From Thermoplasmata archaeon (GTDB lineage: Archaea > Thermoplasmatota > Thermoplasmata > Lutacidiplasmatales > UBA184), in assembly GCA_030038605.1 (NCBI GenBank), contig JASHSU010000121.1, forward strand, positions 1-36,479: a stretch of 36,479 nucleotides of DNA, read 5' to 3'. The translations under genes and the position numbers were made by a program. Below are positions 1,710 through 14,210 of this stretch, piece after piece; position 1 is the stretch's first letter; each line of letters starts with the position of its first letter. The notes beneath the pieces are model-generated. The model was given only the letters and a program-made list of their open reading frames with translations. It made no database searches and had not been told where the DNA came from.

Positions 1710-2945
1710 CTATAATGGTGCCGTCGGCTCGACGGTCACGGCGTCCAGCGCCTCGGTGAGGTCGCGTACCAGGTCCTCCGGTTCTTCGATGCCGAGCGAC
1801 AACCGGACCATGCCGGGGTCGATGCCCCGGGCGGAAAGCTCGGTCGCCGAAAGATGCCGGTGCGAGGTGATCGCGGGGACCGAGGCGAGGCTCTGCACGC
1901 TGCCCAGGCTGGACGCGATGTGGACGAAGCGCAGGCGGTGGAGGAACGGGTCGACCGCGGCCGCTCCGCCGCGAAGGGTGAGCGAGACCATCCCGCCCCG
2001 GCCGGACATCTGGCGGGCGGCGATCTGTTCCTCTTCGGGGGAGTTGCGGCCGGGATAGTAGACCTCCCGCACGGCCGGGTGCCGGGCGAGGGCGTCGGCC
2101 ACCCGTCGCCCGTTCTCGTTCTGACGGGCGACGCGTAGGGCGAGCGTTTTGAGGCTCCGCTCCAGCAGGAACGCGGCGAACGGATCGGGACTGGCGCCGA
2201 GATACCCCTTCGCGTCGATCCGCTCCATCAGGGCGGAGGGCCCGACGACCGCACCGGCCAGCAGGTCACTGTGGCCACCGAGGTACTTGGTCGCGCTGTG
2301 GACGACCAGGTCGGCGCCCAGAGCGAGCGGCCGCTGATTGATCGGGGTCGCGAACGTGTTGTCGACCGCGAGGAGCGCGTGCCGGTCGTCCGCCACCTCC
2401 GCCCAACGGCGCACGTCCACGACCGAGAGCTTGGGGTTGGTCGGGCTTTCGAGCCAGACGAGCCGCGTACCGGGGGTCACGAGCTTCTCCGGCTCCGACG
2501 CCTCCGCCAGCGAGACCAGTCGGACACGGACGCCGAACCGCGGCAGGAGCTCGGTCAGCAGGTCGAGCGTGCTGCCGTACAGCTCGTCCAGCGCGACCAC
2601 CTGGTCGCCGGAACGGACCAGCGAGAGGACGGTCGCCGTGATGGCGCCCATGCCGGTGGCGAACAAGCGCGCCTGCTCTCCACCCTCCAGGGCACGGATC
2701 GCCTCCGCCGGTCCTTCGAACGCCGGGTTGCCGAGGCGCGTGTAGAGGTAGACTTGGCCGGGACCGGCCGCCTCCGAATGTTCGGCCGGAAAGTGAAAGG
2801 TGGACGTCTGGTAGATCGGCGGGACGACCGCGCCGGCATTGTGCTCCGGTCGCCGGGCTCCGTGGACGAGCCGTGTGGTGACACCGGCCCACTCCGGTAT
2901 CGGGGCGAACGGGTGGCGCCGGGGCGCCGGGTCCTCCTCCGTCAT
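1710..2945 (-). CDS. Trans-sulfuration family PLP enzyme (cystathionine gamma-synthase / gamma-lyase type)
   Basis: MTEEDPAPRRHPFAPIPEWAGVTTRLVHGARRPEHNAGAVVPPIYQTSTF...; PLP lysine in VVHSATKYLGGHSDLLAG. ATG overlaps the nadM stop (ATGA). Confidence 0.92.
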   Translation of the reverse strand: MTEEDPAPRRHPFAPIPEWAGVTTRLVHGARRPEHNAGAVVPPIYQTSTFHFPAEHSEAAGPGQVYLYTRLGNPAFEGPAEAIRALEGGEQARLFATGMGAITATVLSLVRSGDQVVALDELYGSTLDLLTELLPRFGVRVRLVSLAEASEPEKLVTPGTRLVWLESPTNPKLSVVDVRRWAEVADDRHALLAVDNTFATPINQRPLALGADLVVHSATKYLGGHSDLLAGAVVGPSALMERIDAKGYLGASPDPFAAFLLERSLKTLALRVARQNENGRRVADALARHPAVREVYYPGRNSPEEEQIAARQMSGRGGMVSLTLRGGAAAVDPFLHRLRFVHIASSLGSVQSLASVPAITSHRHLSATELSARGIDPGMVRLSLGIEEPEDLVRDLTEALDAVTVEPTAPL

Positions 2946-3484
2946 TCCTCGTCCCGCCCGCCGCCCTTCGACCGCAGGGTGGCGAGCCGACGGGGGGCGT
3001 CGATCGATTCCAGGTACGTCGCCACGCCGGGGGTGACCAGAGGCTTCCAGTCTCCGCCCGCCGCCAGCAGGCTCCGGATGTGTTCGCCCTCGTACCGGGC
3101 CCGCTCGTAGAGCGGCGGACTCTCGACCGCGTAGCCGGCGCGCTCGAACAGGAGGCGGGTGAGGGGGTTGTTCGTGTAGACCCGGTCGAACGAGGGCAGC
3201 AGCGACTCGAGGTAGCGGACCCACTGGGCGTGCCGACGGATGTCGGGGATCGGGACGGTGTGGACACACGCCCGGTCCGAGGGGGACAGCGAACGGTCGA
3301 CCATCTCGAACCGTTCCCCCGCGGTGAACGGATTCTTCCAGGTGTACGACTCCTCCGCGCTTCCGATGACCAGCAACAGGTCGGCGTCGGGGCGGGCGCG
3401 ACGGACCGTCTCGACGACCTGCAGATGCCCACGATGGAAGGGCTGGAACCGGCCCACGAGGAGGCCCCGCACGAGGTCCCTCAC
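2942..3484 (-). CDS. nadM: Nicotinamide-nucleotide adenylyltransferase (archaeal type)
   Basis: GLLVGRFQPFHRGHLQVVETVRRARPDADLLLVIGSAEESYTWKNPFTAGERFEM; HxGH nucleotidyltransferase motif. GTG start. Confidence 0.92.
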   Translation of the reverse strand: MRDLVRGLLVGRFQPFHRGHLQVVETVRRARPDADLLLVIGSAEESYTWKNPFTAGERFEMVDRSLSPSDRACVHTVPIPDIRRHAQWVRYLESLLPSFDRVYTNNPLTRLLFERAGYAVESPPLYERARYEGEHIRSLLAAGGDWKPLVTPGVATYLESIDAPRRLATLRSKGGGRDEE

Positions 3485-3720
3485 TCGGGCGACAGGTCTT
3501 CGACGTCCTCGAGGAAGTCCTCGATGTGGGGGCAGCGTGCGGTGAGGTAGTGCCGGCAGTGCCGGCAGTGGCGGTCGTTGAACGCGCCGCTCAGGCGTGC
3601 GTTGAACTCGTAGCAGGGGCGGTTGACGAACTTCTCCTCGTCATCGTCCTCCTCGTCCGGGAACGGTGCGGGACGCATCGGCCCCGGCGGATGGACGGGG
3701 ACCCGGAAGTTGCTCCTCAC
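3481..3720 (-). CDS. Small acidic 4-Cys protein (putative metal-binding), hypothetical
   Basis: 79 aa; [63 protein letters not shown] start overlaps the lon stop (GTGA) and its stop overlaps the nadM start (GTGA). Confidence 0.75.
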
Positions 3721-5744
3721 GAACCCGCGGGCCGGCCCTTGGGCGGCGCCGATGGAGAGGTAGCGGCGGGCAGGTCGTCCGTGGAGCGATTGGTCGCCAG
3801 GACCATCGCGGCCAGGCGCTCGAGCAGCGTGTCCTTCTTCGTGCCCGCCCCGCCGACGAGCGCGTGCTTGAGCACGTCCCGGAGGGTGCGGACCGGAATG
3901 ACCTCGATGACGCCCCGGTAGCGGGACTCGAGGACCAGGTCGTCCAGGTTGTCCTCGGGGATGAGAACGCGACGCAGGCCGGCGTCCGCGGCCGCCTCGA
4001 CCTTGGCGGTCACACCGCCCACCGGCAGGACCTGCCCGCGGACAGAGAGCGAGCCGGTCATCGCGACCGACTGGTCGACCGGGACGCCTTCGAGGGCGCT
4101 GATGACGGCGGTGGCGATGGAGACGGACGCGCTGTCCCCCTCGACGCCGTCGGAGGTTCCGACGAACTGGATGTGGATGTCGAAGCGGGAGATGTCCTCG
4201 CCCGTGTACTTCTTGATGAGCGCGCTCACGTTCTGTACGGCTTCCTTGGCGATGTCGCCCAGCTTGCCCGTCGCCACCACGACGCCACCGTCCCGCGTCT
4301 GGGCCGGCGTCACCTCGGCGACGATCGGAAGGACGATGCCCGAGAACTCGGACATCCCCGTCTGCGCGTTGATGGCGGCCAATCCGTTGACCGTTCCGAC
4401 CGCGGCGCCCTCGGTCGAGAACATGCGGTACTCCTTTCGGCGCTCGATGTACCGGTCCGCGATCTGCTGCTCCAGCGAGCGGCTGGCCCGCTTGGCCTTC
4501 ACGACCTGGTCCGAATGGACCATCGCGAGGCCCTCGGAGAGGGCGATGTCCCCGGCGACCCGCACGAGGCCGCCCAGTTCACGCAGCCGGAGGGTCAGTT
4601 GACCGGATCGTCCGCTGCGCCGCTGCGCTTCCCGGATGACCTCGATGATCGCTCCCTTGTCGAAGTGGGGGATCTTCTTGTCCTTGAGGACTTCCTGGGC
4701 GACGAACCGGACGATCTTCATCCGGTTCTCGTTCGTGTCGGGCATCGTCGTCTTGACGTACAGCTCGTAGCCATAGCCCCGGATCCGCGAGCGGAGCGCC
4801 GGGTGCATCGTCTGCACGCTGTCGATGTTCCCGGCCGCGACCAGGACGAAATCGGCCGGGACCGGCTCGGTCTTGACCATGGCACCGGCCGACCGCTCGG
4901 ATTGACCGACGATCGGGAATCGGCGCTCCTGCAGCGCTGTCAGCAGCGAGTGCTGACTCTCGATCTTCAGGAGGTTGATCTCATCAACGAAGAGCACGCC
5001 ACCGTTCGCCTTGTGGATCGCGCCGACCTCGACCCGCTCGTGGGGCGGGGTCTCGAGGCCGCCGGACTGGAACGGGTCGTGCTTGACGTCACCGAGCAGC
5101 GCCCCGGCGTGTGCGCCGGTCGCGTCGATGAACGGCGGTTTCTCGTCGGGGGAGTGCGCGACCAGCAACTTGGCGACGTTGCCGGCGCCCTCGTTCCGCC
5201 CGCTGGAGAGCCGCAGGATCGCGTAGATGACGATGACGACGACGATCCCCCAGAGCAGATCGATGAGCTGGCCCGAGGTGAACGCCACGTAGGCGATGAA
5301 ACCCATGATGGCGATCGCGACGACGATGAACAGGATCGTCCGCTGCTCCTTCTTGGTCGCCGCCTCTAGCTTCTGCGCGGCGACGATCTCCTTCCCCTTG
5401 CCCGCCGGGACGACCCGGATCTTGGGTTCGTTCGGATCCTCGCTGTTGGGGTAAGCGAGGACGTCTTGGAGCGGTTCCTTGGGCAGGAAGTCGACCATCG
5501 CCCGGGCGAGCATGCTCTTGCCCGTACCGGGTTCGCCGATCAGGATCATGTGGCGCTTCTGGGTCGCCGCCTTGCGGGCGACCTCGACCGCGTCGTCCTG
5601 CCCGATCACCTGCTCGAGCAGGCGCGGGGGGACCTCCACCTGGGCGGTCGAAGCGTAGGGTAGGCTGTTGCCCCAGCTATCGAGCGGGGCCGGAGGAGAT
5701 GTATCTGCCGGTTCGCCGGACGGGGTTTCCGCGTCTTCAGCCAT
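3717..5744 (-). CDS. lonB: ATP-dependent protease LonB (archaeal, membrane-anchored)
   Basis: Walker A GEPGTGKS; two TM helices inserted in the AAA domain ([20 protein letters not shown]...[15 protein letters not shown]); Ser-Lys dyad in [18 protein letters not shown] and [14 protein letters not shown]. Start chosen at [12 protein letters not shown]. Confidence 0.95.
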
Positions 5745-5782
5745 GTCGGCGCCCCAGCCTCGATACCTCGAGGCCCGTAGCA

Positions 5783-5797
5783 CCAATGAACCATTGG
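5783..5797. repeat. Perfect inverted repeat CCAATG-AAC-CATTGG at the predicted lonB transcription start
   Basis: 6-bp arms, 3-nt spacer, immediately downstream of the reverse-strand TATA box. Confidence 0.7.
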
Positions 5798-5802
5798 GGG
5801 GT

Positions 5803-5812
5803 CCATATAAAT
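5803..5812 (-). promoter_or_regulatory. TATA box of the lonB cluster
   Basis: Reverse strand ATTTATATGG, about 60 nt upstream of the lonB ATG. Confidence 0.6.
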
Positions 5813-5835
5813 CCCTATAGGAGAGCACTGGCGCG

Positions 5836-5853
5836 CGCGTAACAAGATACGCG
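5836..5853. repeat. Inverted repeat CGCGTA-ACAAGA-TACGCG in the lonB/folD divergent region
   Basis: Perfect 6-bp arms, 6-nt spacer. Confidence 0.55.
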
Positions 5854-5932
5854 TTTTCGACGCCGCGTCGGGCGCTGGTCGGCCGACGGAATGCTCGTTA
5901 TCTAGCGCGGTCCGCTCCACGGCCCGGGAACC

Positions 5933-6823
5933 GTGACCGACCGTTTGCTCGGCGCCCCGGTGGCCGCCGCTCTCGATCAGGAGACGCGGGCGATCGTCGC
6001 GTCTGCCCCGCTGGCCGGAGGCGCGCCGTGCCTCGCAAGTCTGCACCGCGGGGTCGACGGACCGTTCCGTCGGTACCTCAACGGCCAACGCAAGGCCGCC
6101 GATGCCCTGGGCCTGCGGTTTCGGGAGGAGGTGCTGGACTCGGCCGCCGGTCAGGCCGGGTTCGTGGAACAGGTGCGGGCGCTGGACCGGGACCCGACCG
6201 TTCACGGCCTCATCGTGGAGCATCCACTCCCACCCCCATTCGACTTCGAGAACGCCCTCTCGGCACTGCGCGCGGTCAAGGATGTCGACGGCGTGGGCAC
6301 CGAAAATCTCGGACGGCTGGTCACGGGCACACCGGGTCACGCGCCGGCCGTCGCCCTGGGTGCCGTCCGGATCGCCGCGCACTACCGACTACCGGTGGAG
6401 GGGGCCCGAGTCGCCGTGGTCGGACGATCCTCGACGGTGGGTTTGCCGCTGGCCCTCCTGCTCGCGCGGCGGGGCGTGGACGGTAACGCGACGGTGACGG
6501 TGGCCCACTCCAAGACTCCCGACCTCGCCTCGGCCCTCGTCGGCGTCCGAACGATCTTCAGCTGTGCGGGGTCGCCCCGACTGTTGACGCGGTCCAACGT
6601 ACCCGAGGGCGCGGCGGTGGTCGATATTGGTCTGTCCAGCGTCTCCGACGCTTCTCGACCGAGCGGGTCCCGCATGGCTGGCGACGCGGACCCGGAGTCG
6701 CTCGAGGGCTGGGCGGGCGCGGTGAGTCCGGTCCCGGGCGGTGTCGGTCCTGTGACCGTCGCCCAGTTGATGTGGAACACAGCCCGCGCCTGGCAGCTGC
6801 AAACTCCGGGAGGCACCCGATGA
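5933..6823 (+). CDS. folD: FolD family methylenetetrahydrofolate dehydrogenase (cyclohydrolase residues substituted)
   Basis: KDVDGVGTENLGRLVTG, VVGRSSTVGLPLALLL, SPVPGGVGPVTVAQLMWNT. GTG start. See finding on catalytic residues. Confidence 0.9.
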   Translation: MTDRLLGAPVAAALDQETRAIVASAPLAGGAPCLASLHRGVDGPFRRYLNGQRKAADALGLRFREEVLDSAAGQAGFVEQVRALDRDPTVHGLIVEHPLPPPFDFENALSALRAVKDVDGVGTENLGRLVTGTPGHAPAVALGAVRIAAHYRLPVEGARVAVVGRSSTVGLPLALLLARRGVDGNATVTVAHSKTPDLASALVGVRTIFSCAGSPRLLTRSNVPEGAAVVDIGLSSVSDASRPSGSRMAGDADPESLEGWAGAVSPVPGGVGPVTVAQLMWNTARAWQLQTPGGTR

Positions 6824-7170
6824 CGCCGTCCCGTCGTGGCGCACCGGCGACCGACCTCCACTGCCGGGATTGCCCGATGTGGTACGGTGGGGAAGACGAC
6901 GGCTGGGGGCCGTGTTCCATCAAGAACCGACGTGGGGATGTCCGCTACCTGACGTGGGGCGGCCACGCGTGCGACGAAGGCTACGAGCCCCCGATCGCGG
7001 CGGCGGCTTTGTCCAGCGCCGCACGGTTGAGCGGCGTCCGCTCCACCTCGAGCGCGTCGGACGTCGGATACTCCTCGACCTCGAAGGCGGGCCAGGGCAG
7101 GCGACGGGCGGCCCGACGCAGTGCCTCCGGGCCGAGCTCGACGCGCCGGCGAGCAACATCCAGCCGATAA
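6820..7170 (+). CDS. Small 4-Cys protein, hypothetical; C-terminal half lies antisense to the radical SAM gene
   Basis: MTPSRRGAPATDLHCRDCPMWYGGEDDGWGPCSIKNRRGDVRYLTWGGHACDEGYEPP...; ATG overlaps the folD stop (ATGA). The first ~60 aa look structured; the remaining Ser/Arg/Ala-rich tail may not be functional. Confidence 0.6.
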   Translation: MTPSRRGAPATDLHCRDCPMWYGGEDDGWGPCSIKNRRGDVRYLTWGGHACDEGYEPPIAAAALSSAARLSGVRSTSSASDVGYSSTSKAGQGRRRAARRSASGPSSTRRRATSSR

Positions 7171-8120
7171 TCATCCGGAGCGAGCCGTACCCTCCGTGCC
7201 ACCGCCCGCGCCCATCGGGGCAGGTCGGTGCCCGAGGAGGTCTCGACGATCCCGAGGCGAACGGTCCCGTCCGTTGTCCGCTCCGCGAACGCCGGGGCGG
7301 TCCGCTCCGCACGGCGGAGGAGGCGCTGCCGGAGCTGGACGCTGTCCTTGAACCGGGACGAGCAGTAATGGACAGGGACGGAAAGGCGCATCTCCCGCAC
7401 CACCCGCTCGGCCACCGCCCGACTTCCCCTTACGCCCCAGCCATTCTGGGTGTCGACCCGGTATCCCTTCTCCCGGAGCTGTTCCTCGTTCGTCTCCGAG
7501 AACTCGAGCTCGTTCAGGTTGACAAAGTCCACGCCGATCTCGTCCAGGGTCCGGAGGAGGCGACGCAACTCGGCTTCCTTCTCCGGGAGGACCGGGATCT
7601 CGACGCCCCGTCGGATGCCCCAGTCCGGCGCCGTCTCGAGGACGCTCCGGTACGCTCCCCCGCTCGACGCCAGAGGTCCCCAGAGGTAGTGCGGGATGTG
7701 GAGACGGAATTCGTCCAGGCCCGCGCGAGCCAGCCGGTGCAGTTTCTCCGGATTCGGTTCGTGCGTGTAGAGGTGGATGTTGTGATCGGACCCGAACTCG
7801 CCCTTCAACAGGCGGACGTAGTGCTCGACCCGGTCGACGACGCCGAGCGGGTCGCCGCCGGTGATCCCCGTGCCTCCGGCTCCGATCGAGCGGGCCTCCT
7901 CGAGGATGTCTAGGTCCGAGAGGACGCGTCGCTCGTTGGCGTAGACGACATCCTTCTGGTTCCGCGTCGGCGAGACCGGGCAGTAGAAACACCGGAATCG
8001 ACAGACCCCCGTCACGAACAGGACCATCTTCCGGCCCTCGGCGCACTGGGTGCACGCCGGCGAGAGCGTCCCGCGGTAGCTGGAGGCCATCGGGAGCAGG
8101 TGAAGGCCCGCGTCGGACAT
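6981..8120 (-). CDS. Radical SAM protein (archaeal, PFL-activating-enzyme-like, uncharacterised)
   Basis: VTGVCRFRCFYCPVSPTRNQKDVVYANERRV with the CxxxCxxC cluster motif; GAGGTGITGGDPLGVVDRV; additional N-terminal CTQCAEGRKM. Confidence 0.87.
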   Translation of the reverse strand: MSDAGLHLLPMASSYRGTLSPACTQCAEGRKMVLFVTGVCRFRCFYCPVSPTRNQKDVVYANERRVLSDLDILEEARSIGAGGTGITGGDPLGVVDRVEHYVRLLKGEFGSDHNIHLYTHEPNPEKLHRLARAGLDEFRLHIPHYLWGPLASSGGAYRSVLETAPDWGIRRGVEIPVLPEKEAELRRLLRTLDEIGVDFVNLNELEFSETNEEQLREKGYRVDTQNGWGVRGSRAVAERVVREMRLSVPVHYCSSRFKDSVQLRQRLLRRAERTAPAFAERTTDGTVRLGIVETSSGTDLPRWARAVARRVRLAPDDYRLDVARRRVELGPEALRRAARRLPWPAFEVEEYPTSDALEVERTPLNRAALDKAAAAIGGS

Positions 8121-8302
8121 GGGATTCCGGGCAGCCGGGCTCGCGGACTTAGAGGTTTGGGTTCGTCACCACCCGGGGCTCGAGCGCACACCGACCGCCG
8201 CTGGTGGCGGAACGATACCAAGTGGGGTCGAGGCAGGGGCGGGGCTTAGGCTCAAATCCCCGACCCGGCTCGCCGCGCCCGAGTCAGGGGGTACGACGCC
8301 GC

Positions 8303-9061
8303 ATGGAAATGCAACCGGGCCAGATGGCCTACGACCGGGCGAGCACGGTCTTCTCTCCGGACGGACGATTGTTCCAGGTCGAGTACGCGCTGCAGGCGAT
8401 CCAGATGGGCGGCACCGCGGTCGCGGTAACGTACGACACGGGGATCATCTTCGTCGCCTTCCGTAACCTGCCCACGAGCTCCCTCGCGGAGTCGGGGTCG
8501 ATCGAGAAGAGTTTCGCCATCGATACCGGGCTAGGCTGCGTCACGGCCGGTCTCATCGCGGACTCGCGCGTCCTCGTCGAGTTCCTGCGCGTCGAGGCCC
8601 AGCGGCACCGGCTCACGTTCGGGGAGACCGCGCCCTACCCCGTCCTCGGGCACGCGCTTGGCACGTTGCTCCAGCAGTTCACCCAATTCGGCGGGACCCG
8701 GCCGTTCGCCGTCTCGCTCCTCCTGGGCGGTTTCAACAACCGCGTCCCGGGCCTCATCGAACTGGACCCGAGCGGTGCGACCATCGGATGGAAGGCCTAC
8801 GCGATCGGCCGCAACCGCCGCGCCGTCGCGGATTTCCTCGAGGAGAAGATGTCGGAGCACCTGGGGGAGGACGCCGCGTTCAAGCTCGCCGTCCAGGCCG
8901 TCGCCGAGGGGTCACCGACCCCGTTCCAGCCCGAAGCGCTCGACGTCGCCATCCTCGAGCCGGACCAGGAGCTGCGTCGCCTCGCGCCGGCGGAAGTCGC
9001 CCGGCGTGTGCAGGGAATGCCGTTCATCGGTACGCCCGAGAAGAAGGCCAACTCGCGCTGA
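8303..9061 (+). CDS. psmA: Proteasome alpha subunit
   Basis: MEMQPGQMAYDRASTVFSPDGRLFQVEYALQAIQMGGTAV... (alpha-subunit N-terminal signature), GSIEKSFAID, QQFTQFGGTRPFAVSLLLGG. Confidence 0.93.
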   Translation: MEMQPGQMAYDRASTVFSPDGRLFQVEYALQAIQMGGTAVAVTYDTGIIFVAFRNLPTSSLAESGSIEKSFAIDTGLGCVTAGLIADSRVLVEFLRVEAQRHRLTFGETAPYPVLGHALGTLLQQFTQFGGTRPFAVSLLLGGFNNRVPGLIELDPSGATIGWKAYAIGRNRRAVADFLEEKMSEHLGEDAAFKLAVQAVAEGSPTPFQPEALDVAILEPDQELRRLAPAEVARRVQGMPFIGTPEKKANSR

Positions 9062-9103
9062 GCGGGACCCAACCGCTAAATGCGGGCCGGGCAGGCTCGC
9101 GTC

Positions 9104-9643
9104 ATGTCCGACCCGAGCGCCACGCTGAGCGTCGAGGGGGCGCGCCGTCTCTTCGCCTACAATCGCGCGGTCTTCGACCGGTTCGTCGTCCGCGTCGAGC
9201 GGATGCCGGCCAAGGCGTCGCGCCGCTCGCGCGGGATCGGTCACCTCTCCCTGTTCGACACCCTCGTGCACATCCTGAACGTCCACGAGGCGTGGCTCGG
9301 CTACGTCGTCCCCGGCAAGGTCCGGTCCCTGCCCAAGCGGTTCCGGGAGGCCGACCGCCACCCGAAGGACTGGGCCGGGTTCCGGATCTACTCCCGTCGG
9401 GTCTGGGCGGACGTGGACGCGCTGCTCGCGGGACTCACGGACCGCGAACTGCGCCGCGTCGTCAAGGCCCCCTGGATGCCCGGACGGTACACCGTCTCGG
9501 ACGCGCTGTACCAGACGACGTTCGAGGAAGCGCACCACCTGGGCGAGATCATCGGGGCCCTCTGGCAGGAGGACCGCGCTCCGCCCGACATGACCTGGAT
9601 CGACATCGGCCGCGGCGCCGGCCGCCGCCGTCGCCACCTCTAG
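9104..9643 (+). CDS. DinB-like four-helix-bundle protein
   Basis: MSDPSATLSVEGARRLFAYNRAVFDRFVVRVERMP...GIGHLSLFDTLVHILNVHEAWLGYVVPGK...FEEAHHLGEIIGALWQE; His residues consistent with the DinB metal site. Confidence 0.85.
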   Translation: MSDPSATLSVEGARRLFAYNRAVFDRFVVRVERMPAKASRRSRGIGHLSLFDTLVHILNVHEAWLGYVVPGKVRSLPKRFREADRHPKDWAGFRIYSRRVWADVDALLAGLTDRELRRVVKAPWMPGRYTVSDALYQTTFEEAHHLGEIIGALWQEDRAPPDMTWIDIGRGAGRRRRHL

Positions 9644-11370
9644 GGCTCGAACGGCCGCGTCTCGTCGTCGCGCTCCGCCCGCTCGAACTCCTCGCGCAGG
9701 CGGATCCGCCGCCGGGTCCGATGGTAGGTGACCGCGAACCGGTGCGACTCGTCGCGGACCGCCCGCAGGAGGAGCATCGGGGAGGCGTTCGGGTTCGGCC
9801 GCAGCGGCTCGCGCCGCCCGGGGAAGTACAGCTCCTCCTCGCGCTTGGCCAATCCCACCACCGGGATCCGGTCCTTGGCCCCGATCGCCTCGAGCGCCTC
9901 CACGGCGGCGCCGACCTGGCCGGCGCCCCCGTCGATGAGCAGCAGGTCCGGTAGGATCTCCTCCTCCGCGATGCGCCGGAGGAACCGGCGGCGCACGACC
10001 TCCGCGATCATCGCGAAATCGTTGGTCCCGGGGACGGTGCGGATGCGGAAGCGGCGGTACTCCGATTTCTTGGGCAGACCGCGCTCGAACACGACGAGCG
10101 ACCCCACGGCCTCGTACCCCTGGAAGAGCGAGATGTCGACGCCCTCGATCCGGTTCGGGATCGTCGGGAGCTCGAGGAGGCTCTGCAGCGCGCGGAGCAC
10201 CTCCCGCGGGGCGGCCGAGGGAGTCACCTGGTCAACCGTCGCCCGCGCGAGCCGGTCGGCCAGCTGAGCCAGCGACGCGTACCGGCCGGTCGGCCGGAAC
10301 TGCACCTCGATCCCACGGGGTCCGAGCAGTTCGTCCAGGAACGTGTCCAGCCCCGCCGGTCGCGGCCCGGCGATGTAGAGCTTGGTCGGGGGTTCGATCC
10401 GAGCCCCGTAGTATTGACCGAGGAACTGACGGAGGACCTCGGCCGGTTCCGGGACATCGTCCGCCGGTACCTGCATGAGATGGGGCTCGGTACCTCGTAC
10501 CTCGCCGTCCTCGACGTGGAGGAGGCCCACCGCGACGCGCAGGCTCGCGGGGTCCCGCGGGTACGCCACGGCGAGCACGTCCGCCCTCCCGGCACCGGGG
10601 CCGACCACATGCTGGCGCTCGGCGAGAGCGTCCAGGCCCCGCAGGGCGTCGCGCAGGAGAGCCGCCCGCTCGAACTCCTGGCGGTCGGCCGCTCCGCGCA
10701 TCTCGGCCTCGAGCTCCGGGCGCAGGGGCGTCGAGTTCCCCCGCAGGATCGCGACCGCCCGGTCGATGCGCGACCGATACGCGTCCGCGTCGATCGCCCC
10801 GATGCACGGGGCGCTGCACACGTGCAGATGGTAGTACAGGCAGGCTTCTTTGGGGAGCCGGACGCAGCGACGCAGCTGCAGCAGGTCCCCGAGCAACTGC
10901 TCGACGCTGCGGGCCTCGCGGGCGCTCGTGTACGGACCGAAGAGCAGGTTCTCCTTGCCCCGGCGAGGCCGCCGTACGAGGACGACGCGGGGGAACTCCT
11001 CCCCCATCGTGACCATCAGGTACGGGTAGCTGCGGTCGTCCTTCAGCAGGACGTTGTACGGCGGCTGGTACTGCTTGACCAGGTTCGCCTCGAGCAGCAG
11101 CGCCTCGCGCTCGTTCCGGGTCGGCACGAACTCGACGCTCGCGCTCTGGGCGACGATCGTGCCGTCCTTCTCGATCTTGGCCCGCAGATGGTCGAGGACG
11201 CGCCGGCGCAGGCTGCGGGCCTTGCCGACGTAGATGACCTCCCCGCGGGCCGAGCGGAACAGGTAGACGCCCGGGGCATCCGGTCCCCGCCGGAACCCTT
11301 CGCCGGTCGAGGCGGCGAGCTCGCTCGCCGGAACGAATCCGGGGACGACCGGGGGCGTCGGGTCCGTCAT
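9640..11370 (-). CDS. uvrC: UvrABC system protein C, lacking the C-terminal (HhH)2 domain
   Basis: GIY-YIG N-terminus (DAPGVYLFRSARGEVIYVGKARSLRRRV), UVR motif, RNase H-like domain (LLIDGGAGQVGAAVEAL, RDESHRFAVTYHRTRRR). Start MTDPTPPVVPG overlaps the uvrA stop. Confidence 0.93.
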   Translation of the reverse strand: MTDPTPPVVPGFVPASELAASTGEGFRRGPDAPGVYLFRSARGEVIYVGKARSLRRRVLDHLRAKIEKDGTIVAQSASVEFVPTRNEREALLLEANLVKQYQPPYNVLLKDDRSYPYLMVTMGEEFPRVVLVRRPRRGKENLLFGPYTSAREARSVEQLLGDLLQLRRCVRLPKEACLYYHLHVCSAPCIGAIDADAYRSRIDRAVAILRGNSTPLRPELEAEMRGAADRQEFERAALLRDALRGLDALAERQHVVGPGAGRADVLAVAYPRDPASLRVAVGLLHVEDGEVRGTEPHLMQVPADDVPEPAEVLRQFLGQYYGARIEPPTKLYIAGPRPAGLDTFLDELLGPRGIEVQFRPTGRYASLAQLADRLARATVDQVTPSAAPREVLRALQSLLELPTIPNRIEGVDISLFQGYEAVGSLVVFERGLPKKSEYRRFRIRTVPGTNDFAMIAEVVRRRFLRRIAEEEILPDLLLIDGGAGQVGAAVEALEAIGAKDRIPVVGLAKREEELYFPGRREPLRPNPNASPMLLLRAVRDESHRFAVTYHRTRRRIRLREEFERAERDDETRPFEP

Positions 11371-14210
11371 CGACGCCGGGGGCGCGGCACGGGTACCGGG
11401 GTACGTACGAGCAGCGCGAGGAACCGGGCGGTGTGGCCGCCGGAGCCCTGAGCGACCTCCTCCGGTGTACCGGCGGCGATGACATGGCCGCCCGCCGCCC
11501 CGCCCTCCGGTCCCAGGTCGATGAGCCAGTCGGCCGACTTGAGGACATCCAGGTTGTGTTCGATGACGACCACGGTGTTGCCGCCGGAGCGGAGGCGGAA
11601 GAGGACCTGGAGCAACCGGTCGACGTCGGCGAAGTGGAGGCCGGTGGTCGGTTCGTCCAGGAGGTAGAGGGTCTTGCCGGTGGGCGCCCGGGCCAGCTCG
11701 AAGGCGATCTTGATCCGCTGCGCTTCGCCCCCGGAGAGCGTGGTCGCGCTCTGTCCGAGCTTGACGTAGCCCAGGCCCACGTCGGTCAACAGCTGGAGGC
11801 GGGACTCGATGCGGCGATGGTTCCGGAAGAACGCCAGCGCCTCGTCGACGGTCATGTCGAGCACATCGGCGATCGACCGGCCCTTGAACCGGACCTCGAG
11901 GGTCTCGGAATTGAAGCGGCGGCCGCCGCACTCCTGGCAGGCGACGTAGACGTCGGGGAGGAAGTGCATCTCGTACCGGATCACTCCGTCCCCCTCGCAC
12001 GTCTCGCACCGCCCGCCGGCGACGTTGAAGCTGAACCGACCCGGCCGGAACCCTCGGGCCCGTGCCTCGGGCAACCCGGCGAAGAGGTCCCGGATCGGGG
12101 TGAGGACGCCGGTGTACGTTCCGGGGTTGCTGCGGGGCGTCCGCCCGATCGGCGTCTGGTCGATGAGAAGGACCCGGTCGACCTCGTCGATCCCCTCGAT
12201 GAAGCCGTGCCGGCCCGGCGTCTCGCGGCCGAGCCCGAGGTGGCGACGGACCGCCTTGTAGAGGATCTCCTCCAACAGCGTGGACTTGCCGGAACCCGAG
12301 ACGCCCGACAACGCGACGAACAGACCCAGCGGGATCCGGACCGGGTCGCCCTTCAGGTTGTGCTCGACCGGCTTGTGGATCGTGAGCCATCGACCGGTGG
12401 GGCGGGCCCGCTGGACCGGGACCGGGATGGTCCGGCGCCCCGAGAGGAACTCACCCGTCAGGGAGCGCGGGGCGTCGCCGATCTCGGCCGCGGGCCCGGA
12501 GAACAGGACCTCGCCGCCGTGGACGCCCGCGCCGGGACCCAAGTCGACGAGCCAGTCCGACTCGCGCATCGTCTGTTCGTCGTGCTCGACGACGAGCAGC
12601 GTGTTCCCGAGGTCGCGCAGCGTCTTCAACGTCGCCAGCAACCGGGCATGGTCGCGGGGGTGGAGGCCGATCGACGGCTCGTCCAGGATGTAGAGGACGC
12701 CGACCAGCCCCGAACCGATCTGGGTGGCGAGCGCGATCCGCTCCGCCTCCCCGCCGGAGAGCGTGCCGGACGCCCGGTCGAGGGTCAGGTAGGTGAGCCC
12801 GACGTTCTCCAGGAATCCCAGACGGGCGCGGATCTCCTTCACGACCTGGCCGACGATCTGCTCGTCCCGCTCGTCGAGGCGCAGCGTACGGAACAGCGCG
12901 GCCGCGTCGGCGACCGTCATCGCCGAGGTCTGGGCGATCGACTGGCCCTCGACCGTGACGGCCAGGATACCGGGTTTCAGGCGCTGGCCACCGCAACTGC
13001 GGCACGGTCGGAACGCGAGGAACCCCATGTAGTACTCTTTCGCGCCCTCGCTCTTCGTCTGCTTCCACCGGCGCTCGACCGCCGCGACCAGTCCCTCCCG
13101 GAGCCAGCCGGCGCCCCACCACTCGCCGGCTCCGTGGCCGACGAGCCCCACGTTCCGGTCGGTCCCGTACATGAGCGCCTTCCAGCCCTTCTCCGACAGC
13201 TCGCGGATGGGGCGGCGCGGATTGTAGTCGAACGCGACGCCGAACCGCTCGAGGGCGCCGGTCGTCGGGGTGAGACCCCAGACCGTGATCGCCCGCCCGA
13301 TCGGCTTGTCCTTGTCCGGGACGATGCGGTCGGGGTCGGCGTGCAGGGTCGCTCCGATCCCGAGGCACTCGGGACAGGCGCCGAGGGGGTTGTTGAACGA
13401 GAACATGCGCGGTGCGAGCTCCTCGATCGAGTAGCCGCACTGGGGGCAGGCGCGCCGGCTCGAGAACGTGGTCCGCGTTCCTTTCGCGTCCCGGACGATG
13501 ACCAGCCCGTCCGCCAGCTGCCGGGCGAGCTCGACCGCCTCCGCGAGCCGAGCGCCTTCCGTCTCGTCCACGTCGAAGCTGTCCACGATGACCTCGATCG
13601 TGTGCTTCTTGTTCTTCTCGAGGCGGACCTGAGGGGACCGGAGCGGCAGCTCCACCCCGTCCACGATGAAACGGCGGTACCCGCTCTTGCGGAGTCGCTC
13701 GAGGACGTCGCGGTGCTCTCCCTTTTCGGCTCGGACGACCGGGGCGATGAGGTCGACCCGCTCGCCCCGCGCGTGGGCGCTCACGGCCGCGACGATCTTA
13801 TCGACGGACTGCGGGGAGATCTCGTGGCCGTCGTTCGGACAGTGCGGGATGCCGATGCGCGCGTAGAGCAGCCGCAGGAAGTCGTAGATCTCCGTCACCG
13901 TCCCGACGGTCGACCGCGGGTTCCGGCTGCCGGCCCGCTGCTCGATGGCGATCGCCGGCGACAGCCCCTCGATGGAGTCGACGTCGGGCTTGTCCATCTG
14001 GCCCAGGAACTGGCGGGCGTAGGCCGAGAGGCTCTCGATGTACCGTCGCTGGCCCTCCGCATAGAGGGTGTCGAAGGCGAGCGACGATTTGCCGGAGCCG
14101 CTCACGCCGGTGATGACGATGAACCGTCCGCGGGGCAGGTCGAGGGAGACGTTCTTCAGGTTGTGCTGGCGGGCGCCACGGATGCGGATGACCTCGGATG
14201 GTTCGGCCAT
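11367..14210 (-). CDS. uvrA: Excinuclease ABC subunit A
   Basis: MAEPSEVIRIRGARQHNLKNVSLDLPRGRFIVITGVSGSGKSSLAFDTLYAEGQRRYIESLSAYARQFLGQMDKPDVDSIEGLSPAIAIEQ; two ABC ATPase domains, Cys zinc modules. Confidence 0.98.
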   Translation of the reverse strand: MAEPSEVIRIRGARQHNLKNVSLDLPRGRFIVITGVSGSGKSSLAFDTLYAEGQRRYIESLSAYARQFLGQMDKPDVDSIEGLSPAIAIEQRAGSRNPRSTVGTVTEIYDFLRLLYARIGIPHCPNDGHEISPQSVDKIVAAVSAHARGERVDLIAPVVRAEKGEHRDVLERLRKSGYRRFIVDGVELPLRSPQVRLEKNKKHTIEVIVDSFDVDETEGARLAEAVELARQLADGLVIVRDAKGTRTTFSSRRACPQCGYSIEELAPRMFSFNNPLGACPECLGIGATLHADPDRIVPDKDKPIGRAITVWGLTPTTGALERFGVAFDYNPRRPIRELSEKGWKALMYGTDRNVGLVGHGAGEWWGAGWLREGLVAAVERRWKQTKSEGAKEYYMGFLAFRPCRSCGGQRLKPGILAVTVEGQSIAQTSAMTVADAAALFRTLRLDERDEQIVGQVVKEIRARLGFLENVGLTYLTLDRASGTLSGGEAERIALATQIGSGLVGVLYILDEPSIGLHPRDHARLLATLKTLRDLGNTLLVVEHDEQTMRESDWLVDLGPGAGVHGGEVLFSGPAAEIGDAPRSLTGEFLSGRRTIPVPVQRARPTGRWLTIHKPVEHNLKGDPVRIPLGLFVALSGVSGSGKSTLLEEILYKAVRRHLGLGRETPGRHGFIEGIDEVDRVLLIDQTPIGRTPRSNPGTYTGVLTPIRDLFAGLPEARARGFRPGRFSFNVAGGRCETCEGDGVIRYEMHFLPDVYVACQECGGRRFNSETLEVRFKGRSIADVLDMTVDEALAFFRNHRRIESRLQLLTDVGLGYVKLGQSATTLSGGEAQRIKIAFELARAPTGKTLYLLDEPTTGLHFADVDRLLQVLFRLRSGGNTVVVIEHNLDVLKSADWLIDLGPEGGAAGGHVIAAGTPEEVAQGSGGHTARFLALLVRTPVPVPRPRRR

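Follow-up and report, generated by a model that had tools for sequence, protein, structure and literature searches.

We propose that the FolD homologue of a family of soil archaea (f1) in the order Lutacidiplasmatales probably keeps the methylene-THF dehydrogenase half-reaction and has lost, or nearly lost, methenyl-THF cyclohydrolase activity, a reading drawn from the residues of its active site. The protein is encoded in the window, i.e. the whole stretch of 36,479 nucleotides that was analyzed (contig JASHSU010000121.1), where the gene and the codons of interest are as follows.

5933 to 6823, + strand: FolD-like gene (296 aa, GTG start, TGA stop)
6065 to 6067, + strand: Phe45, equivalent of human Ser49
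6074 to 6076, + strand: Tyr48, the retained Tyr of YxxxK, placed by alignment
6086 to 6088, + strand: Gln52 (CAA), in YLNGQRKA, at the site of the catalytic Lys (human Lys56, E. coli Lys54)
6218 to 6220, + strand: Glu96 (GAG), in VEHPLP, at the site of human Gln100 / E. coli Gln98
6221 to 6223, + strand: His97, at the site of human Leu101, a substrate-site residue
6287 to 6289, + strand: Asp119 of KDVDG, the retained pterin-binding Asp (human Asp125)
6344 to 6355, + strand: PAVA loop in place of PCTP, the PCTP Thr being Val140
6509 to 6511, + strand: Ser193, a residue of the NADP 2'-phosphate type, Arg at the MTHFD2 equivalent (alignment; PMC9173628)

The FolD homologue and its active site

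The product of the FolD-like gene matches two Pfam domains above cut-off (THF_DHG_CYH, E 5.7e-17; THF_DHG_CYH_C, E 3.8e-42), and the solved structures nearest to its AlphaFold2 (AF2) model, which has a mean pLDDT of 88.8, are human MTHFD2 and trypanosomatid and bacterial FolD (TM ~0.9). With both domains and the FolD fold in place, we assign the protein to the FolD superfamily, and we would set it outside the bifunctional FolD class because two residues that define this class, the Lys of YxxxK and the Gln of VQLPLP, were tested and are replaced by Gln52 and Glu96; the KDVDG Asp and the PGGVGP loop, which also belong to the class definition, are present. It is the only PF02882 protein in its own genome (single copy), and the closest named record is from the Thermoplasmata MAG AcS1-45, at 68% identity. 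The best NCBIfam matches are every one named bifunctional, and model-based annotation would name the FolDs of this family likewise, which, if they are dehydrogenase-only, would mis-draw their C1 metabolism.

A preliminary description of the window had reported the Lys-to-Gln and Gln-to-Glu replacements, the PAVA loop for PCTP/PATP and the retention of the KDVDG Asp and PGGVGP, all of which were borne out at the positions listed above. In the alignment to solved FolD/MTHFD structures, the Lys and Gln sites are free of gaps, so that the absence of the Lys is not a misalignment. A substitute Lys nearby was considered and rejected: none of the catalytic positions has a Lys or Arg that the whole family shares and canonical FolDs lack; His97 is the sole new invariant basic residue within the active-site motifs. 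Three changes go beyond those first described, namely Leu101 (human numbering) to His97, Ser49 to Phe45 and the PCTP Thr to Val140. Among the seven key residues of these enzymes (Tyr52, Lys56, Gln100, Leu101, Asp125, Gly273 and Gly276 in human numbering, PMC3368264), 3/7 are altered in the window FolD, with the Tyr, the Asp and the PGGVGP loop unchanged, and Ser49 has been described as a possible catalytic residue (PMC6443876). The window protein therefore shares with bifunctional FolD, the DC domain of human MTHFD1 and MTHFD2 the same Pfam domains, the fold, the YxxxK Tyr, the KDVDG Asp, PGGVGP and the NADP-type Ser, but differs from them by Lys to Gln, Gln to Glu, Leu101 to His, Ser49 to Phe and PCTP to PAVA. 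The role of Ser197/Arg233 in the cofactor binding site has been described (PMC9173628), and with Ser193 the window FolD would be expected to prefer NADP.

Conservation within the family

Across the seven genera of the family that we examined, Gln52 is found in 67/67 FolDs vs. Lys in 35/35 canonical FolDs, the latter being a non-random sample (30 Thermoplasmata and 5 bacterial proteins) picked by strong FolD-domain match. Against the same set, His97 is found in 67/67 vs. Leu in 35/35, and Phe45 in 65/67 vs. Ser in 35/35; Val140 occupies the PCTP Thr site in 67/67 FolDs of the family. Position 96 varies: among the 69 genomes of the family that were tallied, 53 have Glu and 16 have Gln, the Gln (QHPLP) being retained in genera g2, g4, g5 and g7 and in part of g6, with 4 Gln/Glu changes on the FolD tree. 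When aligned with homologues, as had been suggested earlier, the Lys-to-Gln change thus proved to be clade-wide while the Gln-to-Glu change did not, and we take the former to have arrived with the clade and the latter to vary inside it. Because Lys to Gln and Leu to His are both fixed, we regard the altered FolD as a selected clade-wide variant rather than a product of decay; a pseudogene or sequencing error was rejected, given changes fixed across 67 proteins. Relatives in the same order (families f2 and f3) are also without the Lys, with Met and Val at this site.

Expected effect on activity

The carolacton-resistant E. coli mutants K54N and Q98H provide a published comparison, with cyclohydrolase undetectable and dehydrogenase at ~19% in K54N, which grows very slowly, and cyclohydrolase at ~1% and dehydrogenase at ~8% in Q98H (PMC5688156). 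These mutants have lost the same Lys or Gln as the window FolD and partly keep the dehydrogenase, but they are laboratory point mutants whereas the FolD of this family is a fixed natural variant. In contrast to E. coli, the Bombyx mori K53A and Q97A mutants retain cyclohydrolase activity (PMC6443876), and a computational study of MTHFD2 proposed a water relay and left the role of the Lys unsettled (PMC9173628). The premise that the Lys and Gln are tied to cyclohydrolase activity, presented earlier as established, is upheld by the E. coli mutants but is not universal, because the Bombyx mutants keep the activity; it is the majority view and not a settled fact.

On the reading that we favor, Tyr48 and Asp119 would still position the pterin and the aryl group and the Rossmann domain would still bind NADP; because these elements are retained, hydride transfer between methylene-THF and methenyl-THF could continue, while the Lys that would act as general base/acid for ring hydrolysis is missing from the sequence. 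Loss of this Lys, one of the marks of a monofunctional dehydrogenase, is shared with yeast Mtd1, which is NAD-dependent, and the dehydrogenases of acetogens are paired with a dedicated FchA, unlike the window FolD, for which we found none. Mtd1 was not among the PDB matches of the window FolD. Of the two interpretations offered in the preliminary description, a dehydrogenase-only FolD remains the best one in light of E. coli K54N, and a different pterin is disfavored (see below). If the enzyme is indeed dehydrogenase-only, this family would constitute a natural clade-wide K-to-Q test of the YxxxK Lys, on which the E. coli and insect mutants disagree, and would show that archaea of one lineage, whose purines are built with 10-formyl-THF, can do without a dedicated methenyl-THF cyclohydrolase.

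We consider it unlikely, albeit worth weighing, that the enzyme is still bifunctional, with His97, Glu/Gln96 and an active-site water standing in for the Lys in methenyl-THF hydrolysis. As a conserved ionisable residue at the substrate site, His97 could replace the lost Lys function: it is invariant in the family (67/67) where canonical FolDs have Leu (35/35), and its position counts among the seven that are key to the substrate site. Activity of B. mori K53A (PMC6443876), the water relay modelled for MTHFD2 (PMC9173628) and the need of these genomes for 10-formyl-THF all lean the same way, but the cyclohydrolase of E. coli K54N is undetectable (PMC5688156) and FTHFS affords an alternative route to 10-formyl-THF.

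A conserved mini-protein downstream of folD

Two further features of the window adjoin the 3' end of folD.

6820 to 6993, + strand: conserved core of a Cys4 mini-protein gene, its ATG overlapping the folD TGA as ATGA (6820-6823)
6981 to 8120, - strand: radical SAM protein, convergent with folD and Cys4, 73-88% identical in relatives, with no specific family name

The core sequence of the mini-protein is CRDCPMWYGGEDDGWGPCSIKNRRGDVRYLTWGGHACDEGY; its frame stays open to 7170, and from 6981 onward it overlaps the radical SAM gene's 3' end in antisense. The Cys4 ORF lies 3' of folD in 53/53 scored records, of which 52 are genomes from the whole-genome set and one is the AcS1-45 record, with an NTGA start-stop overlap in 48/53 from seven genera, although these counts may be one too high since AcS1-45 probably duplicates L003/L032. 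With a pN/pS of 0.20 (41 codons, 51 genomes) vs. 0.58 for the FolD block, the core is under strong purifying selection. Four Cys, spaced C-x2-C-x13-C-x18-C, and one His are invariant among 16 aligned members. Pfam HIPIP (PF01355) is matched by 16/16 members below cut-off (best E 2e-4), the window member reaching 21.7-21.9 bits vs. a cut-off of 22 in a local match that covers the first three Cys, and solved HiPIPs match at E ~0.07-0.1 only. The combination that defines a HiPIP, a PF01355 score above gathering together with its four-Cys spacing and fold, was not found, no curated family cut-off was passed, and the AF2 model (pLDDT 47) was unusable. Searches of viral and plasmid sequences yielded no copy of the mini-protein, nor was it seen beside other FolDs at those loci whose flanks were read. 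We regard it as a previously undescribed conserved family, faintly HiPIP-like in sequence; the family is coupled to folD and strongly conserved, and has no function attached to it.

Whether this mini-protein contributes to the chemistry of FolD bears on a second alternative, namely that the two form a complex in which an Fe-S center or zinc supplies the hydrolysis, through a metal-bound water, or a link to an electron carrier. The NTGA overlap in 48/53 records from seven genera, the low pN/pS relative to the FolD block, the invariant four Cys and His, the match of 16/16 members to the first three Cys of HiPIP and the apparent restriction to this FolD where flanks were read are all compatible with such a complex, and yet we find it improbable: the HiPIP match is local and under the curated cut-off, the structural model is unusable and the neighborhood as a whole is syntenic. 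Specifically, relatives keep the window block 1710-14210 in the order PLP enzyme, NMNAT, LonB, FolD, Cys4, radical SAM, PsmA, DinB, UvrC and UvrA, so that adjacency of folD and Cys4 alone is no proof of shared function. FolD is among the least conserved members of this block, and its neighbors LonB, NMNAT and proteasome alpha are archaeal in type. We would give very little credence to the more elaborate speculation that the Lutacidiplasmatales FolD gave up cyclohydrolase activity and shares the work with a coupled metal-binding Cys4 mini-protein, which would either hydrolyze methenyl-THF or couple FolD to a new electron carrier.

Supply and use of one-carbon units

A dehydrogenase-only FolD had been expected to need a separate cyclohydrolase, but no dedicated FchA was found in the window's own genome (77% complete). 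Its one match to PF04961 (FTCD_C) was considered as a separate FchA and rejected, since the gene, once read, is a 489-aa fused formiminotransferase-cyclodeaminase (FTCD) of histidine breakdown; every FTCD locus of the family that was examined in detail is fused, and PF04961 is matched in 37/39 good genomes of the order. Because urocanase is present in 95/106 genomes, histidine breakdown accounts for the FTCD and a cyclohydrolase role is not needed to explain it. The cyclodeaminase domain of the FTCD might additionally act as a cyclohydrolase, given that the domain, though fused to a formiminotransferase, is homologous to FchA (solved FchA 7vg4, E 2.6e-11; Thermotoga-type cyclodeaminase 1o5h, E 4.3e-15) and retains the Asp and PGGGS common to solved FchA and FTCD. 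The FTCD cyclodeaminase domain of the family (L095:2712-4181, - strand) carries fixed changes of its own, such as a Met-to-Arg replacement at core position 83, and its score is far lower than that of most other Thermoplasmata.

PurN-type formyltransferase is encoded in 20/20 checked genomes and PurH in 18/20, PurH not being found in the window's own genome (77% complete); SHMT is encoded in 20/20. The near-universal PurN and PurH mean that 10-formyl-THF is required, and FTHFS, which was found in the window's own genome and in 35/39 good genomes of the order, is able to make it. Loss of FTHFS in a sub-clade was rejected: the gaps are scattered on the FolD tree, with 10 changes vs. 11.2 by shuffling, so that MAG incompleteness is a sufficient explanation. 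We surmise that formate would be converted by FTHFS to 10-formyl-THF, feeding PurN and PurH, and that FolD may reduce the methenyl-THF of histidine breakdown to methylene-THF or oxidize serine-derived methylene-THF. Hydrolysis of methenyl-THF, if needed, might be spontaneous, which is possible (PMC5688156), or be carried out by the cyclodeaminase domain of FTCD as an FchA homologue.

Across Thermoplasmata, FTCD_C occurs in 37/38 genera whose FolD lacks the Lys and Gln pair vs. 21/40 of those in which FolD is canonical (Fisher p 3e-6), but a count by family gives 12/13 vs. 11/18 (p 0.095), and no more than 3 independent pairs are available on the tree. Co-evolution of FolD and FTCD_C was set aside on these grounds, and the association is a lead that shared ancestry may explain.

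It is very unlikely that the substrate is a modified folate or an H4MPT-type carrier, the latter being the different pterin raised in the preliminary description: the PCTP Thr-to-Val, Leu-to-His and Ser-to-Phe changes in or near the substrate site and the family-specific changes in the FTCD cyclodeaminase domain would fit such a carrier, but Tyr48 and Asp119 are retained, the family encodes the THF-dependent FTHFS, FTCD, PurN and PurH, and Mch (PF02289) was found in 0/106 genomes, with a control search positive in three archaea including M. jannaschii and M. acetivorans, so that dependence on H4MPT was rejected.

FolD homologues of other lineages

The Thermoplasma-type FolD (NCBIfam FolD_Thplmales, PDB 3ngl) is likewise a Thermoplasmatota FolD but mostly keeps the Lys, and the window FolD scores 123 bits against this model vs. 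a cut-off of 480. Family f19, which looks Thermoplasmatales-like, has Glu at the Gln site in 27/31 genomes. The change is more radical than that of the window in two genomes of f3 (L053, L054), with Val at the Lys site and a VQLPLP that is shortened in the alignment. In f31 (L197, L198, L249, L250), motifs such as YFNNIKKNA and GRPFP place Ile at the Lys site and Gly/Ala at the Gln site, and the genomes with this lysine-free FolD carry an FTCD_C frame of fused size. Conversely, three genomes of f11 (L172, L173, L213) retain the Lys and have His for Gln, the same replacement as in the E. coli Q98H mutant (PDB 5o2a). A lysine-free FolD homologue is also found in bacteria, in the Nitrospirota MAG L038, with Thr at the Lys site (YFLATKKA) and LMPFP for VQLPLP.
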